From the NCBI RefSeq assembly GCF_900104805.1, contig NZ_LT629751.1:2151001-2215000 (forward strand): 64,000 nucleotides of DNA, given 5' to 3'. Position 1 is the stretch's first letter. The number at the start of each line of letters is the position of its first letter. The notes beneath the pieces were generated by a model. The model made no database searches. It saw nothing but the letters and a program-made list of their open reading frames with translations, and was not told the origin of the DNA. Position numbers and translations under genes: made by a program. This stretch comes from Pseudomonas oryzae (GTDB taxonomy: Bacteria; Pseudomonadota; Gammaproteobacteria; Pseudomonadales; Pseudomonadaceae). This document shows positions 27,031-44,891 of the stretch, one piece after another.

Positions 27031-27052
27031 GCGGTTATGCCTGCGTGAGGCC

Positions 27053-34898: not shown

Positions 34899-35590
34899 GC
34901 ATCCGCCCGCGCCCGGCCACAGGCGCGGATGCCCTACCCCTCCCCGGCCAGGCCCCAGGCGGACGCAGCGGCGCCCGCGGCAACGGCGCGCCCACGCGCA
35001 TCGACTGGCCGGCGACCCTCGCCCACGGCCGCCCGCGCCGCCACGCCGATCTGCGCTGGCACGCCCGTCAGCTGCGCCCCGGCGAGCTGTGGCTGGTGAT
35101 CGTCGACGCCTCGGCCAGCACCCGCCGCCACGGCGCGCTGGCCCAGGCCAAGGGCCTGCTCGCGGAGCTGTTCGCCAGCGCCTACCGCCAGCGCGCGCGC
35201 CTGGCCGTGCTCGAAGCCGGCGGCGCCCAGCCGCGCTGGCTGTGGCAGGGACGGAAGGCTTCCAGCGAATTGCACAGCTGGCTGCAGCAACTCGGCGCCG
35301 GCGGCGGCACCCCGATCATCGAAGCCCTGCAACTGGCCACGCTCTGGCTGGTGCGCCGCCAGCGCTACAAGCCGGGCGAACGCCAGCGCCTGCTGCTGCT
35401 CACCGACGGCCGCCTGCGCGACTGGCCGCGCCTGGCCGCGCTGCCCTGCCCCGGCCTGCTGCTGGACATCGAGCGCGCGCCCATCCGCCTCGGCCGCGCC
35501 CGTCAGTTGGCCGCCGAGCTGGGCGCCGACTACCACCATATCGACGAACTGGCGCCGAGTCCCCGCGCGCCCACCTGGAACAGACCATGA
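34826..35590 (+). CDS. VWA-domain protein, ChlD-like chelatase partner
   Basis: The 254-aa product has a basic, Pro-rich N-terminus and a von Willebrand factor A domain: the MIDAS-type [10 protein letters not shown] (residues about 93-102), [16 protein letters not shown] and [13 protein letters not shown]. This matches the C-terminal half of ChlD. With the ChlI-like ATPase and CobN it completes a three-part chelatase. The GTG start at 34826 is the first plausible one in frame and is a weak choice; the true start may be further in. The stop overlaps the cobF start (ATGA). Confidence 0.75.
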
Positions 35591-36354
35591 AAGAACTGCT
35601 GCTGGTCGGCATCGGCGCCGGCGACCCGGACTACATCACCCAACAGGCGATCAACGCCCTGCGCCGCGCCGACGTGATCTTCCTGATGGACAAGGGCCCG
35701 GCCAAACACAAGCTCAACGCCCTGCGCCGTGAAATCTGCGCGCGCTTTCTGGATGGCCACAGCCCGCGCTTCGCCGAAGGCCAGCAGCCGGAGCGCGAAC
35801 GCGACGCCGCCGACTACCGCGCCAGCGTGGACGACCTGAACCGCGACAAGCAGGCGGTGTTCGAGCAACTGATCGACGAGCAGATGAGCGATGGCGAAGT
35901 CGCCGCCTTCATGGTCTGGGGCGACCCCTCGCTGTACGACAGCAGCATCCGCATCATCGAGGCCATCGCCGCCGCGCGCAGCGACCTCAGCTTTGATGTG
36001 ATCCCCGGCATCACCAGCCTGCAGGCCCTCACCGCCCGCCACCGCGTGCCGCTCAACAGCATCGGCCGCGCCGTGGAAATCACCACCGGCCGCCTGCTCG
36101 CCGAAGGCTGGCCGCAGGGCGTGGACAGCGTGGCGGTGATGCTCGATGCCAAGGACACCTACCTGCGTTTCGTCGGCCAGCGCCTGCATATCTATTGGGG
36201 GGCTTATGTGGGGACGGCGGACGAGATCCTGATCGCCGGGCCGCTGGACGAGGTGGCGGAACGCATCGCCGCGACCCGTGCGCGGGCGCGCGAGCGCAAC
36301 GGCTGGATCATGGACAGCTACTTGTTGCGCAATAGCGGGACGGCGCGGGAGTGA
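35587..36354 (+). CDS. cobF: Precorrin-6A synthase (deacetylating), CobF
   Basis: This 255-aa corrin methyltransferase methylates C-1 with loss of acetate, a step specific to the aerobic pathway. It shows LLVGIGAGDPDYITQQAINAL, MVWGDPSLYDSSIRI, VIPGITSLQALTARHRVPLN and MLDAKDTYLRFVGQRLHIYWGAYVG. The start codon overlaps the VWA stop by 4 nt, so chlI-VWA-cobF form a tight unit. A truncated relative of its 3' part follows at 36490. Confidence 0.94.
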   Translation: MKELLLVGIGAGDPDYITQQAINALRRADVIFLMDKGPAKHKLNALRREICARFLDGHSPRFAEGQQPERERDAADYRASVDDLNRDKQAVFEQLIDEQMSDGEVAAFMVWGDPSLYDSSIRIIEAIAAARSDLSFDVIPGITSLQALTARHRVPLNSIGRAVEITTGRLLAEGWPQGVDSVAVMLDAKDTYLRFVGQRLHIYWGAYVGTADEILIAGPLDEVAERIAATRARARERNGWIMDSYLLRNSGTARE

Positions 36355-36406
36355 GGCTGTCCGCCCGGGATTTCTATCAGGCCGCGCAGGCTTGATCGTT
36401 CCCTTT

Positions 36407-36486
36407 GATCGTTCCCACGCTTTGCGTCACAGAAGCGGACGCGGAGCGTCCGGTGATGAGCTCCCACGCAGAGCGTGGGAGCGATC
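36407..36486. repeat. Inverted repeat, family C, at the cobF remnant boundary
   Basis: GATCGTTCCCACGCTTTGCGT and its complement ACGCAGAGCGTGGGAGCGATC form arms of about 20 nt around a GC-rich centre that itself holds GGACGC-GGA-GCGTCC. It ends 4 nt before the homology between the second cobF copy and cobF begins, so it may mark the break point. Confidence 0.8.
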
Positions 36487-36489
36487 ACA

Positions 36490-36785
36490 ACATCGGCCAG
36501 GCCTTCCAGGTCACCCCGGCGCGGCGCCTGGCCGAAGTCTTCCCCGCGGGCCTGAACAGCGTGCTGGTGATGCTCGACGCCAAGGACAGCTACCAGCGCT
36601 TCGCCGACCAGGACATGCACATCTACTGGGGCGCCTACGTCGGCACTCCCGACGAGGTGCTGGTGGCCGGCAAACTCGGCGAAGTCGCCGACGACATCCA
36701 GCGCCTGCGCGCCGAACTGCGCGAGCGGCATGGGTGGATCATGGATAGCTATTTGTTGCGGAGGAATGGGGAGGGGCGGAACTAA
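36490..36785 (+). pseudogene. 5'-truncated second cobF
   Basis: The last roughly 97 codons of a CobF-type protein are left: IGQAFQVTPARRLAEVFPAG, then LNSVLVMLDAKDSYQRFADQ, DMHIYWGAYVGTPDEVLVAG and RERHGWIMDSYLLRRN. Intact cobF 130 nt upstream has the matching MLDAKDTYLRFVGQRLHIYW and RERNGWIMDSYLLRNS, but many residues differ, so this is not a fresh duplication. The SAM-binding N-terminal domain is missing, and the inverted repeat at 36407-36486 lies where the rest should be. An in-frame ATG at 36405 exists but runs through the repeat. A functional product is unlikely. Confidence 0.85.
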
Positions 36786-36792
36786 GGTGGCG

Positions 36793-36859
36793 AACCGCTG
36801 TGGCAAGATCGCCGTGAAATAGCGCAGCTTACGCCGGCATCACACTGCCACCAGCGGTT
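36793..36859. repeat. Imperfect inverted repeat at the left edge of the AT-rich island
   Basis: AACCGCTGTGGC (36793-36804) and GCCACCAGCGGTT (36847-36859) are complementary with one extra base. The size (67 nt) is that of an attC site, but no GTTRRRY core is present at either end. It may be a decayed site bounding the cassette-like island, or an unrelated palindrome. No gene is seen from 36786 to 36975. Confidence 0.4.
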
Positions 36860-36975
36860 TATAAAAATCAAAAAAGTGAACCCATCGGTGCGCTTTCAGA
36901 GGTTTTTTCAAACCGCAGCCTGTCCAGACAAATGGCACAGCCCGGACTGCACTCAGTTTTTGCCGTCGCCCATAA

Positions 36976-37404
36976 TCAAATGCACACTATCAGTCGTGAC
37001 CATAGATCCCCCCGAACTATGAGCCCACCGAGAAACGCAAACAGCATGGACACAAGACCTGCGAGCAGCGCCGAAAAACCAAAGTAACGTGCGGTTGAAT
37101 CGTCTTGGAAGCGATGCCAATTTGTCGCCAATTTGAGCGCCAACCAAGCAACCATAGTTGTCGCCACATCAGAAACTGCGAAGGCGACCAGAACCGTAAA
37201 AAAGAGCCGCTCAGTCATGCCGGTTAGCCATGGAGGAGCACTCAAAAAACCAAACCCATTCGGTGCGCTCGATTTTTCTCCCAGCTTCATTATTTTCCGT
37301 AGGAATTCAAGAAAAAGGCGAGTGACAACCCCACCTATAACAAGGGAAAATATTAGACTAACAACCCAATGCCTAGCGTCCATAGCCCTATCCATTCCAT
37401 TCAA
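36976..37404 (-). CDS. Small membrane protein of unknown function (cassette-like gene)
   Basis: This protein of up to 142 aa has three or four membrane helices (VVSLIFSLVIGGVVTRLFLEFL, then FFTVLVAFAVSDVATTMVAWLAL, then a last pair near the C-terminus with FSALLAGLVSMLFAFLGGLIV). No family was recognised. Three in-frame ATGs (37404, 37395, 37383) are possible; the last, MDARHW, has the best upstream purines. Codon use is plainly more AT-rich than in the flanking cob genes. It is the last of the minus-strand genes in the island. Confidence 0.6.
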   Translation of the reverse strand: MNGMDRAMDARHWVVSLIFSLVIGGVVTRLFLEFLRKIMKLGEKSSAPNGFGFLSAPPWLTGMTERLFFTVLVAFAVSDVATTMVAWLALKLATNWHRFQDDSTARYFGFSALLAGLVSMLFAFLGGLIVRGDLWSRLIVCI

Positions 37405-37484
37405 ATTTACATATCAAAATAACTGGCGCGCAAAGCGTAGCCTTTATGACTCCAGCGAGCAGTGTTGAGCGCATCTTTATATAC

Positions 37485-37967
37485 CTACAACCGAAGCCGA
37501 GAATAAACACCCTCAACCATACATTGATTTCCATCTATGTGCAGGGTTCCATAACCTCCTGCCATTATGGTGAGCACTGCTTCTGTTCCTAGCGCCAAAC
37601 TGATGCAAGTATTTGTTTTTACATAAAGGCCTTGGCCAAAAATTTCGTACCAGTCATCATCTTCACGACTGACGGTGACCACAAAGTTACCAGGCACTTG
37701 CTCTGATTTGCCATACACAGCCTTGACTTGGCATGTAGCGCCAGCCTCAGTGAATATTATTTCACCAACCATACCTTTCATTTTTAAAATAGACGATTCG
37801 CCATAAACATATTCGTAACAGTACTTAGTATGAATGAATATGTCCTTGATGTCTATTTTGTATAGATTGCTGCCTTTTCTTGTTACACTAATTTCATAGT
37901 TTTCCGCCGTGGCCGCAGATGAAAATGCTAGCAAAGCCATGATTAATCTGTACGAGATGTATTTCAC
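37485..37967 (-). CDS. Secreted protein of unknown function (cassette gene)
   Basis: The 160-aa protein has a signal peptide (KYISYRLIMALLAFSSAATA) and a beta-rich mature part with three Cys-containing stretches (YCYEYVYGES, ATCQVKAVYG, NQCMVEGVY). No family recognised. The GTG start at 37967 was chosen because AAGGAG stands 9 nt upstream and the signal peptide begins there; the frame upstream runs through an attC-like site. Base composition is AT-rich relative to the flanks. Preceded by the attC-like site at 37986-38079. Confidence 0.65.
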   Translation of the reverse strand: MKYISYRLIMALLAFSSAATAENYEISVTRKGSNLYKIDIKDIFIHTKYCYEYVYGESSILKMKGMVGEIIFTEAGATCQVKAVYGKSEQVPGNFVVTVSREDDDWYEIFGQGLYVKTNTCISLALGTEAVLTIMAGGYGTLHIDGNQCMVEGVYSRLRL

Positions 37968-37985
37968 TGCAGGCTGCTCCTTGAC

Positions 37986-38079
37986 ATATAGCGTAGAGGT
38001 TAGAGGCGACCAGCGCGCGAAGCGCGGAGGGAACCCAAAAGCGCAGCTCTTGGGCCGCCCTCTCAACCGCCTGTTAGGA
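37986..38079 (-). other. attC-like recombination site A
   Basis: Read on the minus strand, the site starts with TCCTAAC (R''-type) and AGGCGGTTGAGAGGG (L''-type), has a hairpin-rich middle, then CGCCTCTAACC (L'-type) and a poor R' (GCTATAT instead of GTTRRRY). Its length, 94 nt, equals that of site B. It lies between the stop of the gene at 38094 and the start of the gene at 37967, where an attC should be. The degraded R' means it may no longer recombine. Confidence 0.55.
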
Positions 38080-38093
38080 GTAACAGTCATTAT

Positions 38094-38321
38094 CTAGCTA
38101 AGCAACTTATCAATGCTGAGTTTGGCTTCGGCCAAGGCCGCAGCAATCGCCACCTCTCTCGTATCAAAAACACCGGGAAGCGTCCCTTGGGTTATAGCAC
38201 GGCACGAACTGTTGGGCTCGACTCTCCAAGCCGAAAAGGAAGCAACAAATGGTCCACTGATAACACCTGAAGCATGGCAAAATATGGTGTGTCCGCGGTG
38301 ATCGTTTACAAGATCATTCAT
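38094..38321 (-). CDS. Small protein of unknown function (cassette gene)
   Basis: The 75-aa frame reads MNDLVNDHRGHTIFCHASGV, then AWRVEPNSSCRAITQG and TREVAIAAALAEAKLSIDKL. The layout (short beta region, then a single C-terminal helix) recalls small proteins often found in cassettes, but no family is assigned. A longer version from TTG at 38357 would overlap the end of the upstream gene. The stop is 14 nt before attC-like site A. Confidence 0.5.
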   Translation of the reverse strand: MNDLVNDHRGHTIFCHASGVISGPFVASFSAWRVEPNSSCRAITQGTLPGVFDTREVAIAAALAEAKLSIDKLLS

Positions 38322-38343
38322 GGCTCGCTCAATTTGACGTGGT

Positions 38344-38673
38344 TTACTTGAAAACAAGATAAAGAACCATTAAACCAACGACCAGCCAAATCACTTTTTT
38401 CATTGATCCATCTTCCCGAGATCTTCCAAGCTGGAACGACAGCTCTTCATCGGTCGGCGGTGCCTTGCTCTTAAAGAAAGGTGTATTCGAGCCGTCAACG
38501 TATGCCTCATAGAAAACGTCCTTTGCAGTGCTTTCTGCTGCAAATGTCCTTTTGAACAATTCGTCAGGATCGAAGTCTCCGCAGTCATCAACGGTAGGAG
38601 AACCACACTCGTAGACGGTGATCTTTGTGCCAGAAATCTCGGGCATGCTGTAGAGAACTTTTACGGGCTCCAT
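38344..38673 (-). CDS. Tail-anchored small protein of unknown function (cassette gene)
   Basis: This 109-aa protein has an acidic soluble part (VYECGSPTVDDCGDFDPDELF) and one C-terminal membrane helix (VIWLVVGLMVLYLVF). No family recognised. ATG at 38673 lies 5 nt after AGGAG; this purine run is the end of the attC core GTTAGGAG of site B, so the recombination site itself supplies the ribosome site. Confidence 0.65.
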   Translation of the reverse strand: MEPVKVLYSMPEISGTKITVYECGSPTVDDCGDFDPDELFKRTFAAESTAKDVFYEAYVDGSNTPFFKSKAPPTDEELSFQLGRSREDGSMKKVIWLVVGLMVLYLVFK

Positions 38674-38679
38674 ACTAAC

Positions 38680-38773
38680 TCCTAACACTGGCGTTTGGCG
38701 GCGCCGAGTGAGCGAGGCGGACGAGGGAAGCCCGAGCGCAACGAGGACCATCCGCTGGAGCGCCTGGTAGGGC
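38680..38773 (-). other. attC-like recombination site B
   Basis: On the minus strand it begins GCCCTACCAGGCGCTCCAGCG (R''/L''), contains CGCCTCGCTCACTCGGCG and ends GCCAAACGCCAGTGTTAGGA, a classic L'-spacer-R' with GTTAGGA fitting GTTRRRY. Its two ends are imperfectly complementary. It shares the CCTCGCTCACT block with site C. It lies 2 nt after the stop of the gene at 38775 and directly before the next start. Confidence 0.8.
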
Positions 38774-38774
38774 T

Positions 38775-39179
38775 TCATTGTTTCAATCTGGTTGCTTTAC
38801 CCACGAAGGCGCCGACTAAGTCTGGAGCTCCGGGGATCAGACTGCTGGTTCCAATTCTGCTTTTGGTAAATAAGACTTTGCCGTTTACGCGGTCGATCTG
38901 GTAGACCTCAAAGAGCTCGATGTCCTTGTTTGCACCCCAACCCGCTAGAGTCGATTTCCCAAAGCGCGTCAGCTGCGTGTCATCACCAGAAACACTTCCT
39001 TTGTCTTCATCAAAGCAGAGCACCATCGGATTGGAGAACCCGTCGGATTGAAAGGCATACCCGTTAGTTGACGGCGCGATTTGACCTTTCAGATCTGTCA
39101 AGGCCCAGCACTCTTTTGCATAGATGGCTTGCGGCACAAGCACTCCGCACACGACCAAGGCTGCTATTCGGTAGACCAT
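38775..39179 (-). CDS. Secreted protein of unknown function (cassette gene)
   Basis: The 134-aa protein has a signal peptide (MVYRIAALVVCGVLVPQAIYA) and a mature domain starting KECWALTDLKGQIAPSTNGY with later GKSTLAGWGANKDIELFEVYQ. Proteins opening with the same KECW-V/A-DLKG pattern are a recurrent hypothetical family in gammaproteobacteria. The ATG at 39179 has GGGAG 9 nt upstream; starts before it lie within attC-like site C. Confidence 0.65.
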   Translation of the reverse strand: MVYRIAALVVCGVLVPQAIYAKECWALTDLKGQIAPSTNGYAFQSDGFSNPMVLCFDEDKGSVSGDDTQLTRFGKSTLAGWGANKDIELFEVYQIDRVNGKVLFTKSRIGTSSLIPGAPDLVGAFVGKATRLKQ

Positions 39180-39197
39180 TGAATTTCTCCCTATGAA

Positions 39198-39272
39198 GCC
39201 CAACGCTTGGCTAAGTGGGGGCTTTAGCCCGTCCCAGTGAGCGAGGCGAACGATTTGAACCGTTTGTCAGGA
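39198..39272 (-). other. attC-like recombination site C
   Basis: On the minus strand it starts TCCTGAC (R''), then GGTTCAAATCGTTCGCCTCG (L''), a central CTCACTGGGACGGGCTAAAG, and ends TTAGCCAAGCGTTGGGC, where GTTGGGC is a perfect GTTRRRY core. This is the most convincing attC in the window. R'' overlaps the stop codon of the gene before it. Confidence 0.85.
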
Positions 39273-39788
39273 CTTTTTGATTGATGTGCGACATGGGGAT
39301 TTTTCCTCACCACCGTCAGTCGAGAAGCCACATTCATATTCGAGATATTCGACATCTGTATCAACTTCCCGACCACTAATGTAACCATATATCGTATGAG
39401 TGCCGCGCGACACCAAGGGAGCCTTACATTTTGGGCAGACTAGTTCACTATCCTCAATAAGCTCATTCAGCACAGTGAGTTGTTTTTGTAGCCGATGAAG
39501 CTGATTTTCTTTTTCACGAACCTCAACCTGGTGACTATCTCAATCCTCTTTGAGTCGCAACATCTCTGCCTTGGCTATTTCAACTCTGGCAGAAAGCGCG
39601 GTTATTAATACATCTGGCGACTGGGACTCTGCGTCCTTTAGTTTGCGATTAAGGGGCTCAATCTCTTGCTTGAGAAGATCGACTAAAGAATCTTTCTGAG
39701 CAACGAGGACTTTATAAGGAACAAAGAGAGCGATGATGAACGCGATTGCTGAGCCAATTTGCGTATAGAAGATAATGTCGATGCTCAT
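39267..39788 (-). pseudogene. Membrane-anchored coiled-coil/zinc-ribbon protein interrupted by an in-frame TGA
   Basis: One reading frame gives a membrane anchor (IIFYTQIGSAIAFIIALFVPYK), a coiled coil (LVDLLKQEIEPLNRKLKDAE), and AKAEMLRLKED, then a TGA at 39540-39542. After it the same frame continues the coiled coil (DSHQVEVREKENQLHRLQKQ) and ends in a zinc-ribbon (CPKCKAPLVSRG with CGF later). The join is what an intact protein of about 173 aa would look like. Either the gene is broken by one base change, or the halves are made separately (GTG at 39473 could restart). The start MSIDIIFYT follows the attC-type core at 39802-39809. Confidence 0.7.
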
Positions 39789-39801
39789 CGTATTTTCCAT
39801 A

Positions 39802-39942
39802 GCCCTAACTATTATTAGGCACCAGACGGTGTATAATACCCCAAACCGAGATTGGCGGATAAAACTCCAGGACATCCGCAAAAAAACCGCTTTGCAATGC
39901 AGATTTCGCGCAAGCGGCAGAGGTAAAAAGCTGTTATACACC
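39802..39942 (-). other. Possible attC/attI-type boundary at the right edge of the island
   Basis: A GTTAGGGC core on the minus strand (39802-39809) lies just before the first island gene, preceded by TGGTGCCTAATAATA. Upstream, GGTGTATAA (39828-39836) and TTATACACC (39934-39942) form an inverted repeat about 100 nt apart. No matching R'' was found, so the site could be a decayed attC or the attI-like end of the array. From here to 40162 no gene is seen. Confidence 0.4.
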
Positions 39943-40162
39943 ATGACGGAAAGTCCTTTTTTCCAGTATTCGCCATGTTTTGAGGGTAGTCCGGGGTACG
40001 AGCAAAGACAAACCAGACAGCAACCATGATCTCGGGGCTTGAAGTGCAAAGGCGAGCTGCTGCTTTCTGGCCGGGCTCCAGCCAATAGCGCGTCAGCCAC
40101 ACTACCACTCCACAACCGGCCAGCCCCCTCGCCGCTCCCTGGCAAGGACAAGGACCGGCCTT

Positions 40163-41839
40163 TTAGCCCTCCTGCGGATACCACCTCGGCGTATACACCC
40201 ACTCCCCGTCCCCGGCGCGGGGGAAGCGGCGGGTCTGGCTGGAGCCGATGATCACCAGGGTGCGCATGTCCACTTGCTCCGGTGTGAGTTCGCCCAGGGT
40301 CAGCACGCGCAGGCTTTCGGCCGGGCGGCCGATGTCGCGGCCGAGTACCACCAGGGTGTGCGGTGTGCGGTGCTGGCGGACGATGTCCAGGGCGCGGCCA
40401 AGTTGCCAGGGGCGCGACTTGGAGATCGGGTTGTAGAAGGCCATGGCGAGGTCGGCGGCGGCGGCGTGGTCGAGGCGTTTTTCGATCACCGTCCAGGGCT
40501 TGAGGTTGTCCGACAGCGACAGCAGGCAGAAGTCGTGGCCCAGCGGCGCGCCGGCTTTGGCGGCGGTGGCCAGGGCGGCGGAGATGCCGGGCAGCACTTC
40601 CAGCTCCACGCCGTGCCAGCGCGGGTCGCTCGAGGCTTCCAGCGCCTCCAGCACCGCGGCGGCCATGGCGAACACGCCGGGGTCGCCGGAGGAAACCATG
40701 ACCACCCGCCGTCCCTGCGCGGCCAGTTCGAAGGCATGGGCGGCGCGCTGCAGTTCCTCGCGGTTGTCGCTGCCGTGCAGCACCTGTCCGGCGCGGAAGG
40801 GGCCGGCCATGTTGACGTAGGTGTCGTAGCCGAGCACGTCCTCGGCCGTATCCAGCGCGTGGCGCACGGCCGGGGCCATCAGCTCGGCCGCGCCGGGGCC
40901 GAGGCCGGCCACGCTGAGCCGGCCGCGCGGCTGGCCGAGGCTCGCCGCCGCCTGCGGGCTGGCCGCCAGGTGCAGGCTGAGGCCGGGCTCTTCGTGCACG
41001 GCGACGGGCAGCGCGGCGTCGGCAGCAACGAAGCGCAGCGGCACGCCCAGTTCGGCCGCCGCGGCGGCCAGCTGCGGACTGGCGATGTCGGCCGGGTCGG
41101 CCAGTACGGCGGCGAGCGCCGCCTCGGCCAAGTCCGCGTGCTGCAACGCAGCGCGCACGGCTGCAGGCAGGTCGTCTTGCTCTGCGCTACAGCGGGCCAG
41201 CACCAGGCGCGGGTGGATCAGCAGCTCGTCGGCGCAGCCCTGACGCTGCGGGCTGACGCGGATGCACCGCTCGGCCTGCTCGTCCAGCGGCAGGCGCGCC
41301 GCGTCCAGCCAGGGCGCCTCGCCGTCGACGCGCACCGGCTGGCCGCCGAGCAGGTCGCTGACCAGCCGCTTGCCCTGCTCCAGGTCGGCCAGCACGTAGC
41401 CGGGCGGCGGGTTGAGCACGCAGGTGCCGAAGCGCAGTTCGCCGCTGGTGGTGATCGCCGGCGCCACCGCGAGGAGCGCGGCGATCTCGCGGGCCAGCAG
41501 GTTCACCCCGGCCAGGCCACCGAGCAGCGGCACCACGGCGCTGCCGTCCTCGGCCACTGCCAGCACCGGCGGTTCGGCGCCCTTCTCGGCCAGCAGCGGC
41601 GCCAGGCTGCGGATGACGATGCCGGCGGCGCACAGGGCGATGATCGGCCGGCCGGCCTGGTACAGCGCACGCAGGGTCTCACCGAAGTCGTCATAGGGCT
41701 GCTCGACGTCGTCGACCCGCGCGCGCAGGCCGTGGATCGCGGCCTGCGGATAGAGGCCCTGCAAGCGCCGCGCGGTGGCCAGGGCGGAGGGGCCGAGGAT
41801 GACGATGGCCGGCGGCCGTTGACGGTCGAGTTCAGCCAC
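40163..41839 (-). CDS. cobJ: CbiG-like / precorrin-3B C17-methyltransferase fusion (CobJ)
   Basis: The 558-aa protein joins an N-terminal CbiG-type domain (about residues 1-290; [42 protein letters not shown]) to a C-terminal CobJ methyltransferase (about 305-558; [54 protein letters not shown]). It carries out ring contraction and C-17 methylation in the aerobic route. Such fusions are usual in pseudomonads. It overlaps cobI by 8 nt and is the last gene of cobG-H-I-J. The cassette-like island starts about 350 nt downstream. Confidence 0.93.
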
Positions 41840-44544: not shown

Positions 44545-44652
44545 GAGGGTCACCTGAAACGAAGACGCGGCGACCGGACCAGACGAATCCCGCCCACGGC
44601 AGGACTCTACGGCATCGGTACACCCCGCCCGATGTTGGCACTCGCGACCAGC

Positions 44653-44815
44653 GTCGTCGGCAGGTCTCCTGGCTGGCAGGTCGGCATCGGTCGCGGCCTT
44701 CCCGGTTTCCCAGTGGCATTCGGGCGACAGACTCGCTGCGTACAGTTGCGGGGGCAGCCACGGTGGTCCGTGTTCCCTCTTAGGCCGATGGGCAAGCCCA
44801 TCAGGCACCGACGAA
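44653..44815 (-). ncRNA. Cobalamin riboswitch 3 (controls cobG-H-I-J)
   Basis: On the minus strand: GTCGG and CCGAC close the element. AGAGGGAACACGG, GTGGCTGCCCCCGCAACTGT (B12 box), AATGCCACTGGGAAACCGGG and the 3' GCCAGGAGACCTGCCGAC are canonical. It lies about 110 nt before cobG. The plus-strand cobL start is only 77 nt from its 5' end, so the promoters of the two units are back to back. Confidence 0.95.
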
Positions 44816-44891
44816 GGCGCTATTATGCCCGCTTTGCGCGGCGCCGCGACATGCCCCCGTCGGGCCGCATGACAACAGGCAGGACGGATTC

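Follow-up and report, generated by a model that had tools for sequence, protein, structure and literature searches.

The interval between the cobalamin genes cobF and cobJ of Pseudomonas oryzae contains a block of short genes (about 36.79-39.95 kb) which, judged by its sequence, represents an array of integron cassettes that lacks an integrase. It lies in a 64,000-nucleotide stretch of contig NZ_LT629751.1 (positions 2,151,001 to 2,215,000 of the forward strand), which is referred to as the window and supplies the coordinates used below. At the head of the array, where an integrase gene should begin, a predicted attI site of 138 bp is located on the minus strand (39806-39943); this is the key part that the initial annotation of the block had missed. 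The block is probably an integrase-less chromosomal integron in which an orphan attI is followed by four to five minus-strand cassettes, only one of the four attC sites being intact and the other three decayed; its attI belongs to a family of sites that were probably kept in use in the Pseudomonadaceae. Such continued use is indicated by the length of about 136 bp and the conserved ends of the unit, which persist where the integron integrase gene (intI) is absent.

An attI-headed cassette array without an integrase

The attI comprises a core (39806-39866) and a distal inverted GTTATACACCA box (39933-39943). The cassettes lie on its low-coordinate side, no integrase was found beyond the distal box, and the end of cobJ follows 220 bp further on. 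BLAST searches of eight genomes of the genus matched the segment 39793-39868 (76 bp, 77% identity) to DNA that lies immediately before intI in genome G003, and the segment 39802-39945 to an orphan attI in genome G004 (73% identity). The site could also be aligned with four attIs that adjoin intI in the genus, one of them beside the broken intI of the same genome. In these intI-linked sites a conserved 61-bp core adjoins the first cassette, and the inverted GTTATACACCA box overlaps the intI start codon. When scored against the family over 53 core and 11 distal-box positions, the window copy agreed at 38 and 11 positions, respectively. The junction between attI and cassette reads TAATAGTTAGGGC on the minus strand and contains the GTT core, and the ATG of cassette 1 is no more than 10 bp away. 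Homology to attI sites adjacent to intI in the genus and adjacency to the first cassette with a GTT core at the junction thus both characterize the putative attI.

A covariance model was built from 21 attCs, of which six congeners supplied 20 and a different locus of the same genome the remaining one; none came from the window. The model, whose 22-pair structure was drawn by hand from a single congener attC and whose E-values are rough, was run without filters over the whole 64-kb window. The initial annotation had named three attC-like sites, and one of these, attC 1 (39198-39272, minus strand), was placed beyond doubt by this check (66.6 bits, E 3.3e-19). BLAST additionally matched attC 1 to places in every other genome of the genus except G001, thus in six of seven, with 82-93% identity over 29-75 bp. 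The second named site (attC 3, 37986-38079, minus strand) was borderline at 14.3 bits and E 0.15, the second-best score of the 64 kb, with exactly the boundaries initially given; its 5' half TCCTAAC (R'') is good, but the 3' GTT of R' is lost (GCTATAT). The third (attC 2, 38680-38773, minus strand) was not recovered whole by the model, which gave only a partial match at 38663-38724 (10.1 bits). By sequence reading this site retains R' as GTTAGGA, with an altered R''; the good GTTRRRY core ascribed to it is accordingly a fair, but not an exact one. A further degenerate site of the longer congener type (attC 4, 37409-37482, minus strand) was found through a 40-bp BLAST match with a congener attC (E 0.002); its model match (37417-37482; 12.5 bits, E 0.57) scored slightly lower than a place without relation to it at 27051 (12.7 bits, E 0.51). 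In the attC structure, changes on both sides occurred in 9 of the 22 pairs, without excess over shuffled alignments (mean 7.6), while the covariation score did exceed that of the shuffles.

The weak scores of two of the three initially named sites could be taken to mean that attC-like sites occur by chance in what is only an AT-rich genomic island of the ordinary kind. This explanation is highly improbable, being contradicted by attC 1, by the attI, by the common orientation of the genes and by start codons located directly after the attC and attI sites.

Several other approaches to attC detection were abandoned. A fixed consensus pattern applied to the same genome yielded merely five identical copies of one 66-bp stretch (L002-L006), which fit a loose attC consensus and possibly belong to rRNA operons. 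A scan with strict arm pairing was dropped after recovering only two of the sites used later, and a first covariance model, with a structure of 4 pairs from RNAalifold, was replaced by the 22-pair version. Folding was not used as evidence because attC sites were not singled out by their fold z: unconstrained DNA folding gave z values of 0.37 for a sure congener attC and 0.63 for the best site of the window. In six congener attCs (L060 14070; L065 8752 and 10279; L069 9043 and 11976; L072 518) the 5' arm was replaced by a common end, CCATTACAGCA, which we take to resemble the end of a group IIC-attC intron.

Read along the minus strand, the order is attI, gene 1, attC 1, gene 2, attC 2, genes 3a and 3b, attC 3, gene 4, attC 4 and gene 5. 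The G + C content of 0.41-0.53 over about 36.8-40.0 kb lies far below the 0.64-0.79 of the flanks shown, and all genes of the block are short and on the minus strand, both as initially described. None of their proteins reached a curated cut-off in Pfam or NCBIfam, and no match was obtained in PADLOC at E up to 1. Gene 1 (39267-39800) encodes a membrane helix, a coiled-coil-like stretch and a CxxC motif, and its frame is interrupted by one TGA (39540-39542). The product of gene 2 (38775-39179) looks secreted. Cassette 3 contains a first gene (38344-38673) with a hydrophobic helix at its end and a second open reading frame (38094-38357) recognized by translation. Cassette 4 (37485-37967) encodes another secreted-looking protein, and gene 5 (36976-37404), which encodes a membrane protein, is either a fifth cassette or the first gene beyond the array. 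Inspection of the translations by eye agreed with the earlier mention of two signal peptides and of membrane helices: the two secreted-looking products carry signal-peptide-like N-termini, and hydrophobic helices are visible. The attI is the entry point of cassettes, so cassette 1 would be the youngest, in agreement with attC 1 being the sole intact attC.

The window contains no integron integrase gene, as all matches to the integrase model TIGR02249 in the genome (a single contig of 4.64 Mb) lie elsewhere, and tblastn of the genome's own truncated IntI against 39001-41000 returned nothing below E 3.9. The initial description of integron cassettes without a local integrase is borne out. A search of the rest of the genome, which had been suggested, found one integrase: the sole TIGR02249 match over cut-off (720596-721174 of the contig, model positions 1-193) lies 1.47 Mb from the window array. 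The encoded IntI has 207 amino acids, which are 96% identical to residues 1-197 of a 321-residue congener IntI and then match only its last residues; an in-frame internal deletion has removed 114 residues from the C-terminal half, where the second half of the catalytic site is presumably situated. This truncated intI adjoins its own attI and attC (719710-719797) and stands beside the apparent end of a gene for a B12-dependent ribonucleotide reductase, as named from its translation (L059, about 720.58-721.20 kb of the contig). A second orphan attI of the genome was located at 1306550-1306767 (L090 6551-7235; 1306.5-1307.2 kb) with an attC nearby. When the 150 scored of 1371 first-look attC candidates in the genome were taken together, three model matches were obtained at E up to 10, namely attC 1 of the window, 719710-719797 and 1307147-1307234.

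The window array is probably frozen, because the only integron integrase of the genome lacks its C-terminal catalytic part. Nor has the array been renewed for some time, as indicated by the in-frame stop in gene 1 and the decayed attCs. The earlier inference that the cargo is mobile is thus not supported at present, given the internally deleted sole IntI, the alteration of three of the four attCs and the stop in the first cassette. In the proposed scenario, the cassettes would have been inserted at the window attI by an IntI that was encoded by a gene once located beside this attI or by one elsewhere acting in trans, and the breakage of the resident IntI would have left the array frozen and ageing.

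A family of attI units in the Pseudomonadaceae

The attI of the window is one copy of a unit of about 136 bp that consists of the 61-bp core, a TCTAG box and, at an almost constant distance, the inverted GTTATACACCA box. When 398 genomes of the Pseudomonadaceae were searched, this unit was found in at least 64 genomes from 8 of 19 genera; of 390 genomes sampled from the order, at least six carried it, all of them Pseudomonadaceae. These counts are lower bounds because at most two candidates were scored per genome in both searches. The family search started from an orphan copy and may thus be biased towards orphans, even though orphan and intI-linked units have the core in common. Among 91 listed places, 87 covered the core; 15 of these were within 1.5 kb of a TIGR02249 match (E 1e-70), and the remaining 72 were distributed over 53 genomes, 24 of which had no such match at this threshold.

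Examination of 103 loci yielded 94 units, or 88 after removal of duplicates. An IntI-like stretch, either whole or in fragments, was present downstream of 25 units (tblastn E 1e-4 within about 1.3 kb, the definition of intI-linked used here), and 63 units had none. An attC (E up to 0.05) was found within 1.7 kb on the cassette side of 51 of these 63 orphans (50 counted by script, plus L100, which was read as L067). Contig ends do not explain the orphans: 16 of the 63 are in genomes of one or two contigs, and only L145 has a right flank of less than 1 kb. In the genus, orphans lie beside fabI or a glycerate kinase gene, cobJ, a hydroxyacid dehydrogenase gene, a metal ATPase gene, a LysR regulator gene and at one more locus (gene names from translations), and the unit is also carried by contigs of Pseudomonas linyingensis and P. 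sagittaria. With its core and a distal box at the family's spacing (138 bp) and no intI, the window copy belongs among these stand-alone units.

A search for a clean empty site, in which the right flank of one orphan was compared with 56 genomes of its genus, gave eight matches and no empty site. The element was present in four of these loci (L187, L188, L191, L194) and not found in the others (L189, L190, L192, L193); the two of the latter that were read, L192 and L193, have other genes on the element's side. A motif like GCAAGTCCYTTTGC occurs right behind the distal box in L063, L085, L067, L090, L121, L142 and L143, thus in more than one genus, and in looser form at 39944-39975 of the window. 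It was not seen in the six intI-linked copies examined and may mark one old orphan lineage.

The two ends of the unit are preserved in most copies. The distal box was retained with at least 9 of 11 positions in 53 of the 63 orphans; by unit length, 42 of these fall at 134-138 bp, 7 at 124-126 bp, 3 at 119-121 bp and one at 139 bp. It was likewise present in 24 of the 25 intI-linked units, always at 134-138 bp, and shuffled flanks contained such a box at 134-138 bp in only 2 of 1880 trials. The 124-126 bp class is shorter by about one helix turn, which suggests that the unit, as far as its length classes can tell, may be helically phased. The 22 orphans with a length of exactly 136 bp form 231 pairs, of which 213 had unlike right flanks. 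Mean identity in these pairs was 0.825 in the core, 0.427 in the interior (shuffled 0.257), 0.888 in the distal box and 0.358 in the right flank (shuffled 0.330); the interior, being above its shuffled value, is not random. By position, identity was 0.91 at 1-19, 0.77-0.82 at 20-61, 0.29-0.32 at 62-80, 0.58 at 81-90 (the TCTAG box), 0.36-0.51 at 91-122 and 0.89 at 126-136.

Another explanation, which has somewhat less than an even chance of being correct, is that of an ordinary decayed integron: intI was lost beside attI, the attI is a passive left-over in the window as in the family, and the fixed length merely reflects common descent with few indels. It is the main rival because several results misfit a simple story of attI sites served in trans. 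Some elements are flanked by short intI fragments as best match (for example, in L132, L140, L158 and L171), and plain loss of intI therefore does make orphans. In the window, the decay of three of the four attCs and the in-frame stop are what a relic would show, and the window attI itself is among the more diverged copies. Among close relatives, core and interior diverge at similar speed, the core being only slightly better kept (its identity exceeded that of the interior in 9 of 11 clusters, with one tie and one reversal); a locus common to four species of a different genus gave identities of 0.93 for the core and 0.95 for the interior in its closest pair. Two cores among the fabI-locus copies of the genus (L099, L100) are visibly decaying, and 10 of the 63 orphans have no distal box at 9 of 11 positions. 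The 38 right-flank clusters are an upper bound on the number of loci because L104 and L125, which fall into different clusters, share a gene further out and reveal overcounting. All these points weigh against an attI kept in use, and the published view, given in passages of PMC9024848, likewise regards clusters of attC sites lacking integron-integrases (CALINs) as degraded integrons. The relic explanation is opposed by the two distant equal-length pairs of the four-species locus, with 0.77-0.79 in the core and 0.43-0.48 in the interior, and by the distal box that so many orphans have retained, mostly at 134-138 bp. Pairs with G128 at the same locus, a copy one base shorter and compared without gaps, gave 0.82-0.87 in the core and 0.15-0.31 in the interior.

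The presence of an integrase in the genome does not account for the conservation. No TIGR02249 match at E 1e-70 was found in 20 of the 46 orphan-bearing genomes. Resident IntI does not explain the preservation of the orphans because those in genomes without such a match are equally well kept, with a mean core score of 45.7 of 53 (n = 27) against 45.8 (n = 36) for the others; a distal box with at least 10 of 11 positions was present in 19 of the 27 and in 29 of the 36, respectively. This equal conservation would be expected if the unit were kept as a promoter or regulator-binding region of the cassettes and not as a recombination site. The TCTAG box agrees with such a role, since it lies at the position of the -10-like TCTAGGCT in the intI-linked consensus and persists in orphans, even though the -35-like TTGTCA is gone from the orphan consensus. 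However, the core is of the same kind as in intI-linked attIs and abuts the cassettes, and a crude scan reported no sigma-70-type promoter in the window element, so that a purely regulatory role appears unlikely.

In the favoured explanation, the attI family is kept in use: IntI provided in trans would dock at the unit, or the unit would act as the promoter region for the cassettes. A more far-reaching proposal is that the two-ended, helically phased unit of about 136 bp constitutes a stand-alone platform in the Pseudomonadaceae, with one resident or transferred IntI serving several orphan attIs in trans and many CALINs being working satellite integrons; on comparative sequence grounds this is conceivable, though rather doubtful.

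The cobF-cobJ interval in the window and in relatives

The array is bordered by cobF on the left (35587-36354, plus strand; identified by translation, protein 96% identical in G003) and on the right by a minus-strand gene (40163-41839; identified by translation) with a syntenic counterpart in G003, which we take to be cobJ, as it was initially labelled. Only two of the eight genus genomes have a good cobF match, and G002 and G004 have weak ones (28-32% identity). Comparison of the interval with relatives had been proposed at the outset, with the same genes and spacing in all of them being the pattern of ordinary chromosomal genes. In G003 the interval differs, as it measures about 9.9 kb and contains norB, norR and other genes, and the covariance model found no attC in it at E 0.05. 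A membrane protein and a short helix-turn-helix-like protein are encoded there beside norB, a DnrN-like gene and norR (L084 14000-16300; names from translation).

Next to the intact cobF of the window, positions 36490-36785 hold a diverged second fragment of this gene. It corresponds to the C-terminal 40%, is 61% identical to the intact copy and matches positions 158-250 of TIGR02434; between the two lies an inverted repeat (36406-36487) resembling repetitive extragenic palindromic sequences. The far end of the block (36789-36914, minus strand) contains a strong inverted repeat (36789-36860) that overlaps a stretch similar to a pglZ leader. This stretch of about 91 bp (36824-36914) is 77% identical to the leader of pglZ in G001 (L076 8160-8252), a gene whose product matches PglZ of PADLOC at E 2e-221; the window copy ends in an ATG followed by an early stop. 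The inverted repeat was considered as the last attC, and it folds well (z -3.2) but was unreported by the attC model. We infer that the cobF-cobJ interval has been rearranged more than once. Elsewhere in the window, the Pseudomonas small RNA P15 (33615-33734, 96.6 bits) and a cobalamin riboswitch (44642-44827, 110.7 bits) were recognized.

Comparison with known integron systems

Like a CALIN, the initial classification of the window cluster, the array has attC cassettes and no neighbouring intI, and it is far from the intI of its genome. It differs from a CALIN as usually defined in starting with its own attI and in having only one full-strength attC, and the attI at its head makes it more than a usual CALIN. 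Whereas a CALIN is defined by two or more attC sites, the model scored one site here at E 3e-19 and two others at E 0.15 and E 0.57. A complete integron has intI, attI and attC, of which intI is absent here. According to passages of PMC9024848, descriptions of attI sites other than those of class 1 are poor, standard software does not look for such sites, and IntegronFinder 2.0 detects none outside this class. No description of stand-alone attI units was found in the open-licence literature, a scope that leaves most subscription journals outside. Integrase-less cassette clusters are usually read as wreckage, and a constrained attI family free of intI bears on that reading. It also makes testable what a chromosomal attI is composed of, and whether cassettes are gained or expressed with an integrase supplied from elsewhere. 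The family is therefore of more interest than the window copy, which heads an ageing array of small genes without assigned function.

Among chromosomal integrons, those of P. stutzeri Q and BAM, P. alcaligenes and P. mendocina, strains named in part of PMC3108266, have an IntI of the family found in the genome studied here and, by extension, presumably similar attI and attC types; they differ from the window in that no intI lies beside the window attI. Xanthomonas CALINs at fixed loci resemble the present case as cassette clusters at several places away from intI, although the passages of PMC12444791 that describe them mention no attI at the clusters. Delta-attI-type cassettes of class 1 integrons (PMC12901181) contain sequence that derives from attI, is distinct from the attI of the integron itself and retains the ability to recombine. 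There, however, the delta-attI sites belong to single resistance cassettes of mobile integrons, whereas whole units head chromosomal arrays here. The nearest parallel to the compound attI is attI1 of class 1 integrons, which likewise combines a core with direct repeats resembling extra integrase sites; a passage in PMC8946536 describes these two repeats (DR1 and DR2) as additional integrase-binding sites and possible topological filters. The unit of the Pseudomonadaceae differs from attI1 in occurring as stand-alone copies and in possessing an additional inverted box, which lies about 136 bp away and varies little in its spacing.

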